Under the pieces are notes generated by a model. It saw only the letters and a program-made list of their open reading frames with translations. It made no database searches and had not been told where the DNA came from. Below are positions 10,608-21,352 of a stretch of DNA of 64,000 nt, in pieces (positions within the stretch are counted from its first letter, which is position 1; each line of letters begins with the position of its first letter). The stretch spans positions 124,001 to 188,000 of the forward strand of contig NZ_BCNX01000007.1 of NCBI RefSeq assembly GCF_001571405.1. Direction: 5' to 3'. The translations under genes were made by a program, and so were the position numbers. The DNA comes from Methanoculleus thermophilus. Its GTDB lineage: Archaea; Halobacteriota; Methanomicrobia; Methanomicrobiales; Methanoculleaceae.

Positions 10608-12029
10608 CTACGGCGAAAAGATCATCATCCGCTCTTCGGTCATCTCCTCGATCGCGTACTTCGGCCCCTCCCGCCCGATGCCCGAGCCCCTGACCCCGCC
10701 ATAGGGGGCGTGATCCATCCGGAACGTCGAGACGTCGTTGACCACCAGGCCGCCGACCCGGAGTTCCGCGAACGCCTGCGCAATCCTTCGGGAATCGTGG
10801 GTGAAGATGCCCGCCTGCAGCCCGTACTCGGAGTCGTTCGCGAGCGCGAGCGCCTCCTCGAAGGTCTCGTAGGGGGTGACCGTCACCACCGGGGCGAAGA
10901 CCTCGGTCCGGTTCACTGCCATATCCGGCGTCGTCTCGACGAGAACTGTCGGCTCAAAGAGCGGACCGTCGCGGGTTCCTCCGGCAAGCACCTTCGCGCC
11001 GCCTGCGATGGCGTCCTCCACCTTTGCAAACGCTGTCTCCGCGGCAGACTCCGAGATCATCGGACCCACATCGGTCTTTAGTTCGCGTGGATCGCCGACG
11101 GTAAGGGCACGAGTCCGTTCGACAAGCAGCCCGAGCGCCTCCTCGTAAATCGGCTGATGGAGGTAGACCCGCTGCACCGAGATGCAGGCCTGGCCGGCGT
11201 TCGAGAACCCGCCGGCAACGATGCGATCGACCGCAAAGGGGATATCGGCATCCTCATGAACGATCACGGCCGCGTTTCCGCCGAGTTCCAGACCGACGCG
11301 TTTTCTGCCAGCAATCGACCGGAGGTGCCATCCGACGGCCGAACTCCCGGTGAAACTCACACAGGCGATCCGGTCGTCCCGTACCATCCGCTCCGCAAGA
11401 TCGGTGCGGCAGGGGACGACGCTGAGCGCTTCCGCCGGAAACCCGGCCTCAAGCGCCATCTCGCCGAGCATCAGCGAAGAGATCGGGGTGGCCGACGCGG
11501 GTTTGAGGATAACGGAGTTTCCGGCGGCGATGGCCGGCCCCAGTTTGTGGCAGGCAAGGTTGAGCGGGAAGTTGAACGGCGTGATCGCGAGCACCGGGCC
11601 GAGCGGGAACCGGCGGAGGCAGCCTATCCGCCCTTCCCCGGCCACATTCCAGTCGAGAGGAAGGATCGTGCCGTCGATCCGGCGCGCCTCCTCGGCGGAG
11701 ACCTCGATCGTCTCCTGCGCACGCACGACCTCGCTCTCGGCAAGGGCACGGGTCTTTCCCGCTTCGAGCACGATCGTGCGGGCAAGGTCTGCGGCCCGTT
11801 CCCGGATGAGATCGGCAAGCGCGTAGAGGATCTCCGAGCGGCGGTGTGCGGGAAGGCGCCGCGTGACGGAGAACCCGCGTTCGGCAGAACAGAGAGCGTC
11901 CTCGATATCCTCGCTCCCGGCAAGGCAGACCCGACCGGCGACCTCCCCGGTGTACGGGAACCGAACATCCAGGATATCGTTGTTCGTTCGCCATTCTCCG
12001 CCGATCAGGAATCCGCGTGGCTCTATCAT
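10608..12029 (-). CDS. Aldehyde dehydrogenase (lactaldehyde/GAPN-like)
   Basis: NAD(P)-dependent aldehyde dehydrogenase of 473 residues. Visible active-site features: PFNFP with Asn near 153, LKPAS with Lys 176, FTGSS near 227, ELGGN with Glu 248, and GQACIS with the catalytic Cys 282. The closest archaeal family I recognise is the lactaldehyde dehydrogenase linked to F420 synthesis in Methanocaldococcus (CofA); non-phosphorylating glyceraldehyde-3-phosphate dehydrogenases are related. Substrate is not decidable from sequence. It ends toward mtd and has its promoter in the short gap before the GalT-like gene. Confidence 0.85.
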   Translation of the reverse strand: MIEPRGFLIGGEWRTNNDILDVRFPYTGEVAGRVCLAGSEDIEDALCSAERGFSVTRRLPAHRRSEILYALADLIRERAADLARTIVLEAGKTRALAESEVVRAQETIEVSAEEARRIDGTILPLDWNVAGEGRIGCLRRFPLGPVLAITPFNFPLNLACHKLGPAIAAGNSVILKPASATPISSLMLGEMALEAGFPAEALSVVPCRTDLAERMVRDDRIACVSFTGSSAVGWHLRSIAGRKRVGLELGGNAAVIVHEDADIPFAVDRIVAGGFSNAGQACISVQRVYLHQPIYEEALGLLVERTRALTVGDPRELKTDVGPMISESAAETAFAKVEDAIAGGAKVLAGGTRDGPLFEPTVLVETTPDMAVNRTEVFAPVVTVTPYETFEEALALANDSEYGLQAGIFTHDSRRIAQAFAELRVGGLVVNDVSTFRMDHAPYGGVRGSGIGREGPKYAIEEMTEERMMIFSP

Positions 12030-13136: not shown

Positions 13137-14129
13137 TTAGATGATGTACTTGCCGAGCAGGCGGATGGAGTTGGTCATGTCGGGGCCGAGCGGCGAGCCG
13201 AAGATGATCTGGGTAACTCCAGCCTTGGCAAGGTCCTCACACTTCTGCTTGACCGTGTCGGGGGTGCCGGCGATGGTGAAGGCATCGATCTCAGCGTCTC
13301 CGACGAGTCCGCCGACGGCCTTGAAGTCGAAGCGTGCGAGCGCATCCTTGATCTTCGCGACGTTGTTCATGTCAAGGTTGTGGCGCTCGAGGATCGCGGG
13401 CGGGGAGCCTGCGGCGATGAACGCGGCTACGATCTTTGCGGCGTTCCGGGCCTTCTTCTCGTCTTTGTCGATGGACATGGCGGTGTAGGCGCCGACGTCG
13501 AAGTTCTTCTTGCCGGCCTTCTCCATCGCTGCCTTGATGATCGGGATAGCGGCATCGAAGTCCTTGGGGTTGGACGCATTGATCAGGGCGCCGTCACCGA
13601 TCGTACCGGCGAGTTCGAGGACCTTGGGGCCCTGGGCACCGATGTAGATGGGAATACCCTTCTTGCCGGGCAGGGTGACACCGGTCAGCTTGGCACCGTC
13701 GTAGTCGAAGAACTCCATGTTGCCGGTCTTCTTGACCTCTTCGCCAGAGAGGAGCTTGCGAATCTGGGTGACACCCTCAGTCAGGCGGGCGACGGGCTTG
13801 ACGGGGTCGATGGCGAGCTTGGGAAGGGTCGAGAGGTCGCCGGGCCCGATACCGAGGACGGCACGTCCGTCGGAGATCTCGTTTAAGGTAGCCATGAATG
13901 AGGCAATGGCCGCGGGGGTGTCGGTGAACGTGTTCATGATTCCCGGTCCCATCTTGATCGTGTCAGTGTTTGCCGCGATCATGGCGAGGGTCGGGTATGC
14001 GTGGCGGTTGTTGTAGTGGTTGGTGATCCAAACGTAGTCGATATCCTTCGACTCTGCAAGCTTGGTGTAGTTCACCACCTGCTTAACATTGATTGCTCCG
14101 GGCACAAATTCAATTCCATATGTAGTCAA
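13137..14129 (-). CDS. mer: F420-dependent methylenetetrahydromethanopterin reductase
   Basis: Reduces methylene- to methyl-tetrahydromethanopterin with reduced F420, the step after Mtd. The 330-residue product is a luciferase-like TIM barrel: TTYGIEFVPGAINVK at the start, VWITNHYNNRHAYPTLAMIA, GRAVLGIGPGDLSTLPKLAI, and PIYIGAQGPKVLELAG. I chose the TTG at 14129 because GAGGTG lies 7-8 bases upstream and family members start at this residue; an ATG five codons earlier overlaps the binding site. The gene sits alone with its own promoter. Confidence 0.96.
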   Translation of the reverse strand: MTTYGIEFVPGAINVKQVVNYTKLAESKDIDYVWITNHYNNRHAYPTLAMIAANTDTIKMGPGIMNTFTDTPAAIASFMATLNEISDGRAVLGIGPGDLSTLPKLAIDPVKPVARLTEGVTQIRKLLSGEEVKKTGNMEFFDYDGAKLTGVTLPGKKGIPIYIGAQGPKVLELAGTIGDGALINASNPKDFDAAIPIIKAAMEKAGKKNFDVGAYTAMSIDKDEKKARNAAKIVAAFIAAGSPPAILERHNLDMNNVAKIKDALARFDFKAVGGLVGDAEIDAFTIAGTPDTVKQKCEDLAKAGVTQIIFGSPLGPDMTNSIRLLGKYII

Positions 14130-14152
14130 GGCTATACACCTCATTGAGTAGT

Positions 14153-14489: not shown

Positions 14490-16382
14490 ATGCGAGTGCT
14501 GGCGATTGGGCTCGGTGGAGCCGGGTCACGGGTTGTAGATAGTCTCTACGACCATGACCGACGGAGCAAGGTCTACTGCATGAATGCAGCAGCAATTGAT
14601 ATCGACCCGAATGCTCTTGTTCAACTTCGCCACCTTCCAGAATCCGCGAGGATCTTCTTCCCGCAGATCGATCTCGTGAAACCCGACGATATCACGTATG
14701 CGATCGATATCGAAGAGGTGATGAACCGCATCCAGAGTCTGGATACTATAGAGATCGATGCTATTCTCATCTGTTGCGGGCTTGGGGGCAGTATCATCGA
14801 TATTGCTCCGCTCATCATCGACAGACTCCGCAAGTCGTACGTGGAGCCGATATTTGCACTTGCCATCCTCCCATGCTTAAATGAGGGAAAACGAGTCTCG
14901 GCCAAAGCCGCTGACGACCTGGATCAGCTCAGGGACCTCGTCGATGCCGTCATCCTCTTCGACAACCAGACCTGGTCGGAGAAGATCAAGGCGGCCGCAG
15001 CTGCTGAGAGGGAGAATACGGGCATCATGGATCAACTGCGCCGGAATCCGCTCCCTCTGATCTCCAACCCAAGGGAACACTACAGCATGCTCAACGAGCG
15101 CATTGCCCGCCAGATCGGCCTCCTCCTCCGCGCCGGGGAGTTCAATGAGTCCGGGCTCGACGTTGCCGAAGTTGTCCTGGATGCCGGGGAGGTCCTCAAC
15201 ACCTTAAAAGGGGGCGGCTTCGTCGCGGTCGGCTACGCCACCGAGCGTCTGCCGGCCGCGTGGCTGGACTTCCTTCGCCGAAGGCAGTCTTTGAAGTACT
15301 TTATCCAGGGCTCGCAGGAGAAAGCCGCCCGGATCGTCTCGCTCGCAAAGAAAGCGGTCTACGAGGAGGTATCGATCCCCTGCGACCTAACCAGCGCCAA
15401 CAAGGCTCTGGTCCTGATTGCCGGCCCCTCTGCCGAACTCTCGATGAAAGGGTTTCAGACAGTCAGAAAGTGGATTGACCGAAGCATTGCCGGCCTTGAG
15501 ATGCGATCCGGTGATTATCCAGTAAAAAACACTTCGTTCGTCGGTATCATCATTGTGCTGTCGGGGCTGCTCAACGTACCTCGCGTCGAGGAACTCAAGG
15601 AGATCCGGGAGGAGTATCGTCTTGAACTCGAGGAAGAGCAGCTGAGAGCCGAAGAGGAGAAGCGACTCCGCGAAGAGGAAGCAGCCAGGGCATCGGATGC
15701 CGCCTTGGGAGAGGATGAACTGTATATCGCTTCGCCTCTCGAGTCGGCGTATCTGGAGGAGAGTGGTTACGTGGCGGGATCATCGATACCCGAGAAGGAT
15801 GAGATGATTGCCCTGCCGGGCAGCGGTCAGGGCAATGTGAGGAGGAGCGACGATACCATCGAGATGCTTCCGAGAGCCGAGAAGAAATCAGACGATGGCG
15901 CTATCATTCTCCCTCCTAAGCAGGGCGGAAGAGAGATTGACCTCACCGCGTCCGCCTCGGTCACGTCATCTGTGCCTGCACCAAAGAACTCTATCTTCGA
16001 TCCCAAGGGGATCAGCATCGAGAAGGCCGTGCCGAAAGATGATGCAACACTCTACACCGCATCCATACAACCGGTTCAGCGTCCGAAGGACGAGGCCTTT
16101 TCCGGTACCAGGGCCACGCTGGATCGTGGGGTACAGCGGCCGAGCGATAAGACCTTTGATGAACATAACCTGCGCATGCGAGGTCTGTCTCCCGCGCCGA
16201 AGGATACCCTGCTGGACCAGTCCGGCCTGCGTCTCGGCCGCCCGAATACTCAACCAAAGGAGCTTGACCCATCCCGCGGGCGACTCCAGGTGATCGACCC
16301 GGCCGCCCAATCGAAGAGCCGGAGAGAGAGTGAGAAGAAGCCAGATGATGAGCCCGGTGACGGCGGGATCACCTGGATGTAG
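14490..16382 (+). CDS. Tubulin/FtsZ-like protein with C-terminal repeat tail
   Basis: A 630-residue protein with a tubulin/FtsZ-type N-terminal half: a Rossmann glycine motif IGLGGAGSRVVDSLY (6-20), a signature-loop position ICCGLGGSI (94-102), and a T7-like segment GLDVAEVV followed by LKGGGFVAVGYA, matching the FtsZ NVDFADV...GTGVA layout. The signature loop departs from GGGTG(S/T)G, and the T7 Asn is missing. About 370-405 is a highly charged Glu/Arg helix. Residues 498-607 hold six imperfect 17-19 residue repeats starting PK(D/N), PKDE or PSDK. It is not a cell-division FtsZ; a non-canonical archaeal FtsZ-like family is the best fit. It has a good GGGGG binding site and converges with nrpR, overlapping it by 14 bases. 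Confidence 0.75.
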   Translation: MRVLAIGLGGAGSRVVDSLYDHDRRSKVYCMNAAAIDIDPNALVQLRHLPESARIFFPQIDLVKPDDITYAIDIEEVMNRIQSLDTIEIDAILICCGLGGSIIDIAPLIIDRLRKSYVEPIFALAILPCLNEGKRVSAKAADDLDQLRDLVDAVILFDNQTWSEKIKAAAAAERENTGIMDQLRRNPLPLISNPREHYSMLNERIARQIGLLLRAGEFNESGLDVAEVVLDAGEVLNTLKGGGFVAVGYATERLPAAWLDFLRRRQSLKYFIQGSQEKAARIVSLAKKAVYEEVSIPCDLTSANKALVLIAGPSAELSMKGFQTVRKWIDRSIAGLEMRSGDYPVKNTSFVGIIIVLSGLLNVPRVEELKEIREEYRLELEEEQLRAEEEKRLREEEAARASDAALGEDELYIASPLESAYLEESGYVAGSSIPEKDEMIALPGSGQGNVRRSDDTIEMLPRAEKKSDDGAIILPPKQGGREIDLTASASVTSSVPAPKNSIFDPKGISIEKAVPKDDATLYTASIQPVQRPKDEAFSGTRATLDRGVQRPSDKTFDEHNLRMRGLSPAPKDTLLDQSGLRLGRPNTQPKELDPSRGRLQVIDPAAQSKSRRESEKKPDDEPGDGGITWM

Positions 16383-17334
16383 TATCCATCATCCGTTCGA
16401 ACGGTATGGTCCCGGCGCCGATCTCCGTCCTGACGGTGTAGCCCTTCTCGATTGCGTTGCCTATCATGTTCATGCCGCTGAACGAGACGATGGATAGGCG
16501 ATAGGGGTGTTTGGGAAGGTTGTACTCCCCAACCCCTCCCCCGGCGGGGAAGGTGAACCCATACTCTTCCATCCGACCGATAGCCGCCTCTATGCGGTTT
16601 CGTGCAGCCTCAGGGACTGCACGAATATTGGCGAGCCCTACACCGGATCCGGTCGTCACAAGCCGATTGATCGAGGTGAGGCCTGCGGATATAAAGAGGT
16701 GGAGGGGATCGACCGAGGTCCCCCGATATCCGATGAGATCGAGGAATCCGGCGGAGCCGTCTTTGTCGATGGCGATCCTGCCGGCATACTCAAGCCTCGT
16801 CGGGATGCCCATCTTCTGAAGGATGCCGTCCAGGGTAACGCTGCAGGCGGTCATGATCCCTGTATATCCCTCAGGTACGCGAGGGTCGGAGTCGACGATG
16901 CGGTAAGCGTTCAGGAATCCATAGCCGGCTTTTGCCACCTCGTCGAAGGCGGCCGTGACCCCTTCAAGGTCTTCCTCGCGCACAAAGGAGAGGTTGTAGG
17001 CGATGCTCCCCGCACCGGTCTCGAGATCGAAGGTGCTCTGAAAGGCGAGTTGTTCGAGTCTTGATATGATAAAGCCGATCTGCTCGTCGACGAGCGCGCT
17101 CTCACTCTCGGCCACGCCGGCATCGGTGAGGAGGCGGCCACGATTCCCGACTTTCCTGGTGAATCCCATCTCATCGAGATACTGGAGGTAGTACTGGACG
17201 GCGCGGTCGCTCAAGACGAAACCCCGTTCGGCCATCTTCTCGCTCAATCTCTTGGCGCCCAGTGGTTCGTGCGATTCCGCAAGGATTCGCAGGATTTCAA
17301 GGTATTTCCTTTCTGAACGTATCGACGAACTCAT
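16369..17334 (-). CDS. nrpR: NrpR-like nitrogen regulator (HTH plus one NrpR domain)
   Basis: Archaeal transcription repressor family that senses 2-oxoglutarate and controls nitrogen fixation and ammonium assimilation genes. The 321-residue protein has an N-terminal winged helix (about residues 8-68: LEILRILAESHEPLGAKRLS ... RAVQYYLQYLDEMGF) and a single NrpR (DUF128) domain with ETGAGSIAYNLSFV and ITTGSGVGLANIRAVPEAAR-like segments. This is the single-domain layout found as NrpRI in Methanosarcina, which works with a separate partner not seen here. It overlaps the end of the tubulin-like gene and adjoins the dUTPase-like gene. Confidence 0.85.
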   Translation of the reverse strand: MSSSIRSERKYLEILRILAESHEPLGAKRLSEKMAERGFVLSDRAVQYYLQYLDEMGFTRKVGNRGRLLTDAGVAESESALVDEQIGFIISRLEQLAFQSTFDLETGAGSIAYNLSFVREEDLEGVTAAFDEVAKAGYGFLNAYRIVDSDPRVPEGYTGIMTACSVTLDGILQKMGIPTRLEYAGRIAIDKDGSAGFLDLIGYRGTSVDPLHLFISAGLTSINRLVTTGSGVGLANIRAVPEAARNRIEAAIGRMEEYGFTFPAGGGVGEYNLPKHPYRLSIVSFSGMNMIGNAIEKGYTVRTEIGAGTIPFERMMDTTSR

Positions 17335-18044: not shown

Positions 18045-21000
18045 TCATTGGATCTGGATGTACGCGCTCCGGTTTGTCCCAACAACCACTTCCTGGTCCA
18101 GCCAGGCCGAGGAATCCCCTGTATCCGGCGCATAGCCGGTAACCCTGATGATGTACTTGCCGGCAGGAAGACCGCGCACGTCCAGCGTGGATGTATCGTG
18201 CGTTGTCGTGTTCGTAGCGTGGCGCGTGTCGAACTTCACCCAGGAGTAGCCGTTATTGTTGGAGTAGAAGAGATCCTCCGTCACGGTATAGAGACCGGTA
18301 TAATTGAGATCCCAGGCGACCGGGAGGAATTCGGTGACCGGCTCCACTCCGGTGAATCGAAGGTTGCTGATCTCAAGGCTCCGGAAGTCCAATCCCGTGT
18401 TGTTCAGCGGATAGGCCGTGATGAAGGTGTCAGGGAGCGCCAATGTATCGGTGCCGTTGTTGAACGTGATCGTCGAGCCCGGGCCAAAGATATTGATGTT
18501 ACCTTCCTTCAACACCTTGAGGCGGAACGTCGTCTCCCAGGTCTGACCGAGCCGCATGGTGCCGATATCGAAATGGAGGTTGTGGTCATCGTTCCAATCG
18601 TCGGTCTGGTCGATGGTGTGCTTTGGTGTTACCACACGGCGCCCAGTCTCATTATCCACCCAGCTCTCGACGGTCGTCGAGACCCCGGTCTCGTGGACGT
18701 AATCGAAGACGTCGGCTCCGGATTCGAATCTCTCGTTCACCTCGACGTTCTCAAAGGCGATGTCAAGTTTGGTGTCGACACCGGCCTCGGTCCGAAGCTC
18801 GCCGGCGATCTCGGTGTAAACCCTCCGGAGGTCGTCCTCGTTGCCGGCCCAGACATATCTCCCACCAGTTGCGCTAGACAGGATGCTGAGATCCCTCTCG
18901 ACGCGCCAATCCAGGTTCGACGCAAAACCAATGCTGTAGATCTTCACTTTGTTCGTTTCACCGCCACTGTTGGCATACACCGACATGTTCTGGTTGGTGT
19001 ATTGGCCGTTATCACAGGTCCAGCTATCGGGGCGGATGCGGACCCACTTTTTCTCCTTGGTGTCATACCAGTCTCCCCGGTCCAACTCTCTCAGAACATT
19101 CGCATCGCCTTTCGGTCCCGGAAGATCATGGTACCACTCGTACTTCTCGCTTGAGAAACTGTAACTGCTCCCGCTCCACCGATATCCAGACAGAGGCGCC
19201 CAGTATGGAGACGAATACCAATCGCTGGTGAGATAGCGATTATTATCCGCGTAACCTATGCCTTTTGCGAGCGGTGAGCCATGGTAATTCCAGTCGCCAT
19301 CACCCATGAGGATGACTGCTTTGACCGCATCGGGTCTTCCATTCTCCTTAAGGTACTTGATCGCAGTATAATACGCCATCCTCATGTTTGTCGCACCGTC
19401 TGGCGACAATTTGTTTATCGCTCTCTTTATCTCATCAGGGTCACTGGTTAACCCCTGGTCCAGCGTGGCACCGAAAGAGAACGAGACCAGAGCCACCCGG
19501 TCGCATACAAAGTTCATCTGGTCGACAAAATCACTCGCCGCACTCTTTGCCGCCGCCATCCTTGTCGGGAGTACGTCCGTCCCCCCCATACTCCCCGATC
19601 TGTCGATCACCAGCACCACATCAATCGGGTCCGGCTGAAGAGCCCAGCCGTCGCCACGGAGGCGGACCGTGACATCGGTTGTGTTATCCACCGCAACCGT
19701 CTCAGGGGAGACGGAGGTCTCCACCGAGAGGTAAGGGTAGTTCTTCCAGGCGAGAACGATATCCCGGGTGACGTTCTCCCATGTTGCCCGGACGACCGCC
19801 GTGCCGGTCGCGGTGTCGCTCCAGCCCTCCTCGCTCCGGTCGGTCGTGAACATACCCGGCCGGAAGTCAACGATCGCGGAGCCGTTCCCGTCGGTATAAG
19901 CCCATGTCGTCACCAGTTCCGGCTCCCGGGTCTGAACGTATGGTGCACAGTTCACCGATATGATCTCAAACGAGACCCGTTCCCCCCCTACCGGGTTCCC
20001 TCTCTCGTCGATCACCTTGGCCCGGAGGTGCGAGACGGAGCCGTCGTTGACGTCTCGGCTCGGCATCGTCTGCGGGCTTGCAGAGAGGAGCATGTTCACC
20101 GGCTCGGTGCTGGTAAACTCCACTTCCTGTGATACACTCACACTCGAGTTCGCGGCGGTCGTGGCGGTGATGGTCGCACGACCGATCGAGTCCTCAGGCC
20201 CGTAGGTGATCTTCACCTGCCCATCGGAGTTGGAGACAAGAAGCCGGCTCTCTCGCTTGTCCTGCTGCCCGGGCCGCTTCATCGTGGCGTTCACCCAGAG
20301 GTCCTGCCCGACTGAGGGGTTCCCATACCTGTCGAACAGAGTGTAGGTGAGCGATATCATCGTCTTTCCGTCAGCCGGGACCGAACCACTGGCAGGGACA
20401 ACAGCCTGTGTGATGGTGGACGGCACCCCTCCAACACCCGTGATTGGGATGCACAGACCCTCAATCGGCTCCGGCGGCTGGATGAAGATAAGGTTCTCTC
20501 CGGCCACGGTATCGACCCGGAACTCCACAATAGCGCATCCGTTCTCATCTACTTCGACGGAGACAGAGTCCTTACCCCCATCAAACACCCCGCCGGTGCC
20601 CCCCTCAATCATGCCTGCCGCAAAACGCACCTTCTCGGCTATGTTGCGGTTATCGACCGGGTTCCCGTACTCGTCCTCCAGCCAGACGATGACTCTCGCC
20701 TTCTCGCCTGCGATAACATCCTGCGAGCACCACCAATTGGCAATAACACGCGGGACCGCGTGATCTATCGGCTGGTCAACGCTCGCGACCAAGGACCCAT
20801 CCGGGATCATCGCTGTGATCGCTGCATTCCCACTCTTTGTCCCAGGGGTAAAGAGCGCCGTTGCTCTGCCAGCACCGTCCGTCACCACCCGGGCGGGAGA
20901 GATGGTGCCATATGTGCTCTCCACCCTCAGGTCAACGGTAACCCCGGGAAGGGGGGTGTTCTCGGTACTGTTCGAGACCCGCACAGTTATAGTCGCGGGA

Positions 21001-21128
21001 TCTTTGCTCCCCGCCGTCAACCACGGGGTATCAGTAGAAAGTTCAATCGTATCCGGTATCGCCGCTCCTGTCGGGATCACAAAGAAAAGGACCCCTATAA
21101 TCAGGCACGCATACGTCCAGGTCTTCAT
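18045..21128 (-). CDS. Secreted protein with Ig-like repeats and a VWA domain
   Basis: About 1027 residues. A signal peptide (MKTWTYACLIIGVLFFVIPT) is followed by several invasin-type Ig-like domains with recurring G-x-A-T-A/V-F patterns (about 25-480), then a von Willebrand A domain with the MIDAS motif DRSGSM near residue 507 and ILMGDGDWN further on, and C-terminal beta domains (to YIQIQ). Many N-x-S/T sites suggest glycosylation. No membrane anchor is visible at the C-terminus, so it may be released or bound non-covalently. I chose the Met at 21128 at the signal peptide, with GGTGG about 5 bases upstream; the frame opens 35 codons earlier. Role probably adhesion or cell-surface binding; ligand unknown. 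The next surface-protein gene lies downstream in the genome order but is upstream in this orientation. Confidence 0.8.
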   Translation of the reverse strand: MKTWTYACLIIGVLFFVIPTGAAIPDTIELSTDTPWLTAGSKDPATITVRVSNSTENTPLPGVTVDLRVESTYGTISPARVVTDGAGRATALFTPGTKSGNAAITAMIPDGSLVASVDQPIDHAVPRVIANWWCSQDVIAGEKARVIVWLEDEYGNPVDNRNIAEKVRFAAGMIEGGTGGVFDGGKDSVSVEVDENGCAIVEFRVDTVAGENLIFIQPPEPIEGLCIPITGVGGVPSTITQAVVPASGSVPADGKTMISLTYTLFDRYGNPSVGQDLWVNATMKRPGQQDKRESRLLVSNSDGQVKITYGPEDSIGRATITATTAANSSVSVSQEVEFTSTEPVNMLLSASPQTMPSRDVNDGSVSHLRAKVIDERGNPVGGERVSFEIISVNCAPYVQTREPELVTTWAYTDGNGSAIVDFRPGMFTTDRSEEGWSDTATGTAVVRATWENVTRDIVLAWKNYPYLSVETSVSPETVAVDNTTDVTVRLRGDGWALQPDPIDVVLVIDRSGSMGGTDVLPTRMAAAKSAASDFVDQMNFVCDRVALVSFSFGATLDQGLTSDPDEIKRAINKLSPDGATNMRMAYYTAIKYLKENGRPDAVKAVILMGDGDWNYHGSPLAKGIGYADNNRYLTSDWYSSPYWAPLSGYRWSGSSYSFSSEKYEWYHDLPGPKGDANVLRELDRGDWYDTKEKKWVRIRPDSWTCDNGQYTNQNMSVYANSGGETNKVKIYSIGFASNLDWRVERDLSILSSATGGRYVWAGNEDDLRRVYTEIAGELRTEAGVDTKLDIAFENVEVNERFESGADVFDYVHETGVSTTVESWVDNETGRRVVTPKHTIDQTDDWNDDHNLHFDIGTMRLGQTWETTFRLKVLKEGNINIFGPGSTITFNNGTDTLALPDTFITAYPLNNTGLDFRSLEISNLRFTGVEPVTEFLPVAWDLNYTGLYTVTEDLFYSNNNGYSWVKFDTRHATNTTTHDTSTLDVRGLPAGKYIIRVTGYAPDTGDSSAWLDQEVVVGTNRSAYIQIQ

Positions 21129-21160
21129 ACGCCACCGTATGTGCTCTTTGGCGAATGATC

Positions 21161-21170
21161 GTATATAAAA
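21161..21170 (-). promoter_or_regulatory. TATA box of the VWA protein gene
   Basis: GTATATAAAA (TTTTATATAC on the minus strand) lies about 35-40 bases before the start codon, implying a leader of only about 10-15 bases. The rest of the 220-base gap to the next gene is AT-rich with no gene seen. Confidence 0.55.
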
Positions 21171-21352
21171 ATTATCAATTGAATAATTGATTAAAATTGG
21201 TCTTTTGCATATATGAGCAATAATATTCGCCAAAATCGGATAACATTTAGTTTAACTAAGATCACTGGAAACAAAAACATCACTCACACCCCTCTGGAAG
21301 CACAACCTTTCCCACAAGGACACAATTTTCCCAAAAAAAAAGATCGGGAGCC

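Follow-up and report, generated by a model that had tools for sequence, protein, structure and literature searches.

The gene at positions 14490..16382 (+) of the window, a stretch of 64,000 nt of Methanoculleus thermophilus (contig NZ_BCNX01000007.1), encodes a divergent CetZ in which the nucleotide-binding loops T3 and T4 are not intact and the T7 face is retained. This loss of the pocket is order-wide in Methanomicrobiales. From sequence comparison we propose, with a probability of slightly under one half, that this pseudo-CetZ may dock by its T7 face on the canonical CetZ of its own genome and act there as a cap, terminator or regulator.

Identification of the gene product as CetZ

The open reading frame comprises 630 aa plus a stop codon. 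A Pfam search of the product gave a match to CetZ_C, PF21011 (E=1.1e-45; 155.7 bits against a gathering score of 21.6), and a weak one to Tubulin, PF00091 (E=3.9e-11; 44 bits against a gathering score of 33); the canonical CetZ of the window's own genome scores 112 with PF00091. With TIGR00065, the FtsZ equivalog, the protein reached 32.6 bits, far under the cut-off of 295.2, and FtsZ identity was ruled out. AlphaFold2 predicted residues 1-410 as a confident body closed by a long charged helix, aa 364-409 (15579..15716, +). The best PDB matches to this predicted fold were CetZ1 (4B46) and CetZ2 (4B45) of Haloferax volcanii, with target TM 0.85 and 0.88, and the same two proteins were the nearest solved relatives by sequence. 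A 63-protein tree grouped the pseudo forms of Methanomicrobiales with CetZ, and a long branch separated FtsZ. By profile, structure and tree, therefore, the protein is a divergent CetZ. The original prediction of an FtsZ-like protein was right about the tubulin-superfamily body and wrong about FtsZ; the comparison with the FtsZ, CetZ and FtsZl families proposed along with it pointed to CetZ. Since T3 and T4 are not intact, we class the protein as a variant and not as a canonical CetZ GTPase. Four tubulin-superfamily genes are present in the window genome: two for FtsZ, one for canonical CetZ (L099, 388 residues) and the one described here, whose nearest orthologues are found in Methanoculleus.

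Conservation of the locus

The gene is real, intact and conserved, being matched in 98 of 100 genomes of relatives. Through most of Methanomicrobiales the order mtd-galT-mer-gene-nrpR-dcd is retained, with mer and nrpR in the opposite orientation; mer was found in 74/98 and dcd in 70/98 loci, some of which stop at contig ends. The divergent neighbour mer (13137..14144, -), for F420-dependent methylene-H4MPT reductase, was identified by NF002619/TIGR03555 above cut-off. It is separated from the pseudo-CetZ gene by a 345-bp common upstream region, an arrangement conserved in most Methanomicrobiales families, and a common promoter region for the two genes is possible. The convergent nrpR (16369..17334, -; Pfam NRD1_2, 2e-69) lies outside the system, and its end at 16369 confirms the 14-bp overlap with the pseudo-CetZ 3' end noted originally.

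Several other features of the locus were recorded. An aldehyde dehydrogenase gene at 10608-12029, between mtd and galT, is present in 12 of 98 loci and represents a lineage-specific insertion or loss, and galT is inverted in L045, L046, L048-L050 and L204. The gene beside dcd (18045-21233) encodes a large surface protein whose domains include Big_1 and VWA; related large surface genes occupy the same position in most Methanoculleus. A Methanocorpusculum-type pseudo-CetZ in a MAG titled Lachnospiraceae bacterium (L094, JAKSRN010000271.1) points to archaeal contamination of that bacterial MAG.

Loss of the nucleotide-binding pocket

The nucleotide-binding (N) domain, aa 1-192 (14490..15065, +), is degenerate and belongs to the confident AlphaFold2 core. 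The T1 loop GLGGAGSR at residues 7-14 (14508..14531, +) keeps its glycines, as expected from the glycine motif originally placed at 6-20, and has Gly for the canonical Gln10. In T2, AIDIDPNAL (14592..14618, +), the canonical Asn37 and Ala39 are both replaced by Asp (D37 in 95/96 and D39 in 91/96 orthologues). Alignments showed that T3, canonically VKGHGVGTDN, is deleted at 14658..14684 (+). The T4 signature loop, residues 95-107 (14772..14810, +), reads CCGLGGSIIDIAP in place of the canonical GLGGGTGSGGSP; the canonical CetZ of the window genome has AGLGGGTGSGGSP at this position. T6, FDNQTW (14958..14975, +), is retained in Methanomicrobiales, with N159 in 96/96, and is followed by an order-specific insertion of about 25 aa (14976..15071, +). 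The M-loop and the region after it (15237..15335, +) are short in the alignment. The degenerate GGGTGSG loop had been noticed in the original prediction; the T3 deletion, the insertion after T6, the shortened M-loop and the CetZ family had been overlooked.

None of the 96 distinct Methanomicrobiales orthologues has GGGTG, so the search for homologues of the pseudo type with an intact GTP loop returned none; T3 is likewise lost in all 96. Where the canonical CetZs of these genomes have GLGGGTGSGG at T4, the pseudo form has GLGG[SNRT][VML]x[DE], and an acidic residue (D/E) stands at position 104 in 86 of 96 orthologues. Local decay in one strain was ruled out, given that 96/96 orthologues are alike, the locus is conserved and dN/dS is low in the core (see below). 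Neither is pocket loss a general trait of extra CetZs: in six Halobacteria genomes, which together gave about 30 CetZs, full loss of T3/T4 was not found, the G-rich T4 being retained and sometimes weakened. With T3 deleted, T4 replaced and new acidic residues in the pocket, the protein has probably lost the ability to grip GTP through the phosphates.

The T1 glycines, T5 Glu132-Gly133, T6 Asn159 and H7 Asn202 are nearly invariant among the Methanomicrobiales orthologues, so guanine or another ligand may be bound in another way by the methanogen form. The protein could on this basis be an independent ligand-sensing scaffold or a homopolymer, whose remodelled pocket binds a guanine nucleotide, another dinucleotide or a metal (through D37, D39 and D/E104). 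The fixation of these new acidic residues and the replacement of T4 by a conserved loop, GLGGx(V/M/L)x(D/E), agree with this explanation, which we nevertheless regard as unlikely: most such positions are not retained in the Archaeoglobi counterpart described below, though T7 is, and the Pfam search matched the protein to no NAD-binding or other such family.

Retention of the T7 face

The T7 segment LDVAEVVLDAGEVLNTLK (15156..15209, +) is intact. The original prediction held that the T7 Asn is gone. This is not a loss, because the T7 of canonical CetZs, (V/A)(G/A)E.VVDSSEIINTL, also lacks FtsZ-type N-x-D; the stretch reads VGEMVVDSSEIINTL in the canonical CetZ of the window genome and VAEVVLDAGEVLNTL in the window protein. 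A phmmer alignment with 4B46 placed Glu234 at the position of CetZ1 Glu218, and both acidic residues, D231 and E234 (equivalent to CetZ1 D215 and E218), are retained in 96/96 orthologues, which speaks against a loss of the catalytic side of T7. Glu218 is reportedly the T7 residue changed in the CetZ1 GTPase mutants of Duggin and colleagues from 2015. After T7 comes GGGFVAVGYA, at about residues 241-250, much as first described.

Conservation was compared in 21 genomes having both proteins. In canonical CetZ the N-domain (0.86) is more conserved than the part after it (0.79); in pseudo-CetZ the order is reversed, with 0.48 for the N-domain and 0.585 for the later part. Sliding windows identified the H10-S9 block and T7 as the top two conserved stretches of pseudo-CetZ, the top 12-residue window among orthologues containing GLEMRSGDYPV of H10-S9 (15492..15524, +). 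H10-S9 is also the most conserved stretch of canonical CetZ, so its conservation does not discriminate between the two and T7 is the informative stretch.

The core of pseudo-CetZ is under purifying selection: in close pairs its dN/dS was mostly 0.1-0.2, and that of the tail 0.2-0.4. The fast evolution of the N-domain and tails that range from 4 to 771 residues across orthologues might suggest a paralogue that is decaying or under relaxed constraint and serves no particular function in filaments, but the core dN/dS, the conserved locus and the invariant T7 make this explanation hardly credible.

A second pocketless CetZ in Archaeoglobi

Genomes of two further families (codes f9 and f28) encode a second CetZ of 303-339 residues alongside the canonical one. 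We take f9 to be Archaeoglobaceae, since most of its tested genera carry dsrA and mcrA is absent in most members tested. Two divergent mcrA-like genes were found in f28, a pair presumably resembling that of the archaeoglobal lineage Ca. Polytropus. In 30 sequences of this second CetZ, f28 included, T3 and T4 are gone, GGGTG is absent and T1 is eroded in most; T6 is lost in those of f9. No other window of these proteins is as conserved as T7, GEVVVDTSDVFNAL (0.92 against 0.48 overall), and the equivalent of Glu234 is Asp. The predicted structure (pLDDT 90, pTM 0.90) is nearest to CetZ1 and CetZ2 and has no tail. One genome (G244; L207) has the pocketless gene and canonical cetZ on one strand, the former 147 bp upstream of the latter.

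Drift would be expected in a face without contacts, and T7 therefore appears to be under selection in both lineages. Its retention could also serve folding or homotypic contacts.

Phylogeny and pairing with canonical CetZ

In the 63-protein tree, whose root is unsafe owing to long branches, the Methanomicrobiales pseudo forms made up one clade (97/99) and the Archaeoglobi forms a separate one (100/98), neither of them inside the clade of canonical CetZ (99/99). The data are compatible with the pseudo type having arisen once (p-AU 0.39). The canonical CetZs of Methanomicrobiales, Archaeoglobaceae and f28, which are exactly the groups bearing the pseudo type, also form a clade (98/85).

PF21011 was matched twice in nearly all genomes of Methanomicrobiales and Archaeoglobaceae and once in those of several other families. 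Complete Methanomicrobiales genomes that were sampled, as well as the sampled Archaeoglobaceae, also encode a canonical CetZ; its gene is not adjacent to the pseudo-CetZ gene in the window genome and most relatives. With a canonical copy in the genomes of the relatives checked, pseudo-CetZ seems to be a partner or end-cap specific to that protein. The same co-occurrence, together with retention of the whole fold, would suit a mixed-filament subunit that copolymerizes along canonical CetZ through a nucleotide-free interface, as in alpha/beta-tubulin, with the tail decorating the filament. The nucleotide-bearing domain is, however, the least conserved, which makes a second longitudinal contact in that domain less likely, and we consider such a copolymer rather improbable.

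Other CetZ combinations were also seen. Five genomes of the g10 group (G044, G049, G054, G069, G089) have 3-4 CetZ_C matches, that is, extra canonical CetZ beyond the pair. A conserved adjacent cetZ pair occurs in Halobacteria (L254, L250, L252, L253 and L256, from G287, G329, G318, G165 and G127), where one member is near-canonical with a modified T7, ENAMDSSDIMRTL, and the other is divergent with weakened T4/T7 (e.g. GLAGGTGGGAGA, ENRIDASDITRTL). Such genes may represent another type of CetZ pair.

The repeat-containing tail

Residues 421-630 (15750..16379, +) are predicted to form a disordered tail (pLDDT about 40) and gave no Pfam match, MORN repeats included. The tail contains six repeats of 17-19 aa (15981..16310, +; period 19), approximately (R)P-K-D/E-x-x-x-...-G-L/I-x, starting at 15981, 16032, 16083, 16140, 16197 and 16254. 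The corresponding residues 498, 515, 532, 551, 570 and 589 are exactly those originally proposed. Self-alignment of the tail against shuffles gave a peak at offset 19 (z=5.9) and a weaker one at 17 (z=2.9). The motif was read off the window sequence and then tried on other species: P[KNSR][DE] at 14-21-residue spacing exceeded shuffles in most long-tailed orthologues, Methanocorpusculum petauri (L079) having 9 such spacings against 0.04 expected; L059, L060, L062, L183, L194, L195 and L203 had none. Chance repeats were thus ruled out by a period above shuffles and by recurrence of the motif in other species. This recurrence, on which the repeat idea had been made to depend, holds for most long-tailed orthologues and does not extend to copy number or unit sequence, which vary (six units in the window, seven in M. 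chikugoensis, L041), nor to the tailless forms. Of the suggested binding array for a partner or the membrane, the array is real; membrane binding is not favoured, the units being hydrophilic and predicted disordered. They matched nowhere else in the genome.

The protein ends in an acidic/Trp peptide, GDGGITWM (16356..16379, +). In 68 of 77 complete long-tailed orthologues the C-terminus is W followed by an aliphatic residue, or closely similar to this, and usually comes after an acidic run; the canonical CetZs of Methanomicrobiales terminate in (I/V)(D/E)PLFE. Since copy number evolves and the motif and terminal Trp peptide stay in most long-tailed orthologues, function might be seen as residing in the tail, an arm that would act as a scaffold or form condensates, with the CetZ body only a folded anchor on another protein. 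This is very unlikely, as there is essentially no tail in five f5 sequences (L188, L197, L198, L199, L202), in Methanospirillum (L090) and in the Archaeoglobi form, all of which retain T7.

The f5 lineages and Methanospirillum have lost the terminal Trp peptide as well, and a relation to cell shape is possible. At the other extreme, pseudo-CetZ tails of Methanomicrobium (L072, L073, L086) reach 740-771 residues, and in L072 a long Asn/Gln-rich prion-like stretch precedes the repeats.

Proposed role

Each nucleotide in a tubulin-type filament belongs to one subunit and contacts T7 of the next, and it is this nucleotide between subunits that governs the filament. The T7/H10 interface face is mapped from known tubulin and FtsZ structures. 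In the docking scheme that we favour, the T7/H10 face of pseudo-CetZ would bind the GTP-exposing end of a canonical CetZ filament or subunit, and the docked protein would complete or alter the GTPase site of its neighbour. Growth from the top of pseudo-CetZ would be blocked, as it would present no nucleotide there. The disordered tail, with its repeats and terminal Trp peptide, might serve as a multivalent arm that brings a partner to the filament end. Extended to both lineages, this would mean a two-component CetZ cytoskeleton in Methanomicrobiales and Archaeoglobi, with the pocketless subunit as a T7-only cap or GTPase-activating partner and the methanogen tail recruiting further partners; we put this broader scheme forward tentatively.

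If correct, it would provide a tubulin-superfamily end-binding factor derived from tubulin itself, and a clear example of an archaeal pseudo-GTPase regulator that evolved from a polymer protein. A conserved subunit without nucleotide loops that retains the catalytic face would amount to a natural experiment on that face alone.

Comparison with known systems

Brown and Duggin (2023; PMC9856176), in the part of their paper available to us, distinguish two CetZ groups in Archaeoglobales and Methanomicrobiales and suggest functional pairs, an idea that would become directly testable with two small proteins from one genome. One group is described there as deep-branching, its A. fulgidus member having a short M-loop, and very probably includes the window protein. 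The same deep group also contains Methanosarcinales CetZs, among which 3ZID (Methanosaeta) differs in retaining an SGGTGSS loop. The available part of that paper does not mention pocket loss, selective T7 retention or the repeat tail. A 2023 study of FtsZ/tubulin origins (PMC9871819), again in its available part, describes CetZ-like groups by their C-termini and does not mention pocket loss; titles and abstracts of papers on CetZ with Methanoculleus or Archaeoglobus contained no report of pocket loss or tail. To judge from these sources, the two CetZ groups have been known since 2023, and pocket loss and tail are apparently unreported.

Pseudo-CetZ resembles H. volcanii CetZ1/CetZ2 in its fold, CetZ_C domain, acidic T7 (the CetZ1 E218 equivalent) and H10-S9 block, and shares a short M-loop with CetZ2. 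It differs from both in lacking T3 and GGGTGSG and in having the post-T6 insertion and a repeat tail of about 210 residues. The divergent families FtsZl1 and FtsZl2, found by their intact GGGTG(S/T)G loop (Makarova and Koonin 2010; PMC2875224), likewise combine a tubulin-superfamily body with an added C-terminal region; they retain this signature loop, whose absence from pseudo-CetZ rules out membership.

Two other systems offer parallels. Plant ARC3 is a degenerate GTPase with a MORN region behind its FtsZ-like body. It negatively regulates the FtsZ ring of plastids (PMC5877594). By analogy, pseudo-CetZ may work like ARC3, with a tubulin-superfamily body and a C-terminal region of its own regulating a canonical polymer; unlike ARC3, which belongs to the FtsZ family, it has a CetZ body and disordered repeats. 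Alpha- and beta-tubulin are also co-occurring paralogues, and as in that pair one protein is predicted to act through its T7 on the nucleotide of its partner. The CetZ pair differs from them in that one partner is without the T3/T4 phosphate-binding loops and that it had a separate origin within CetZ.
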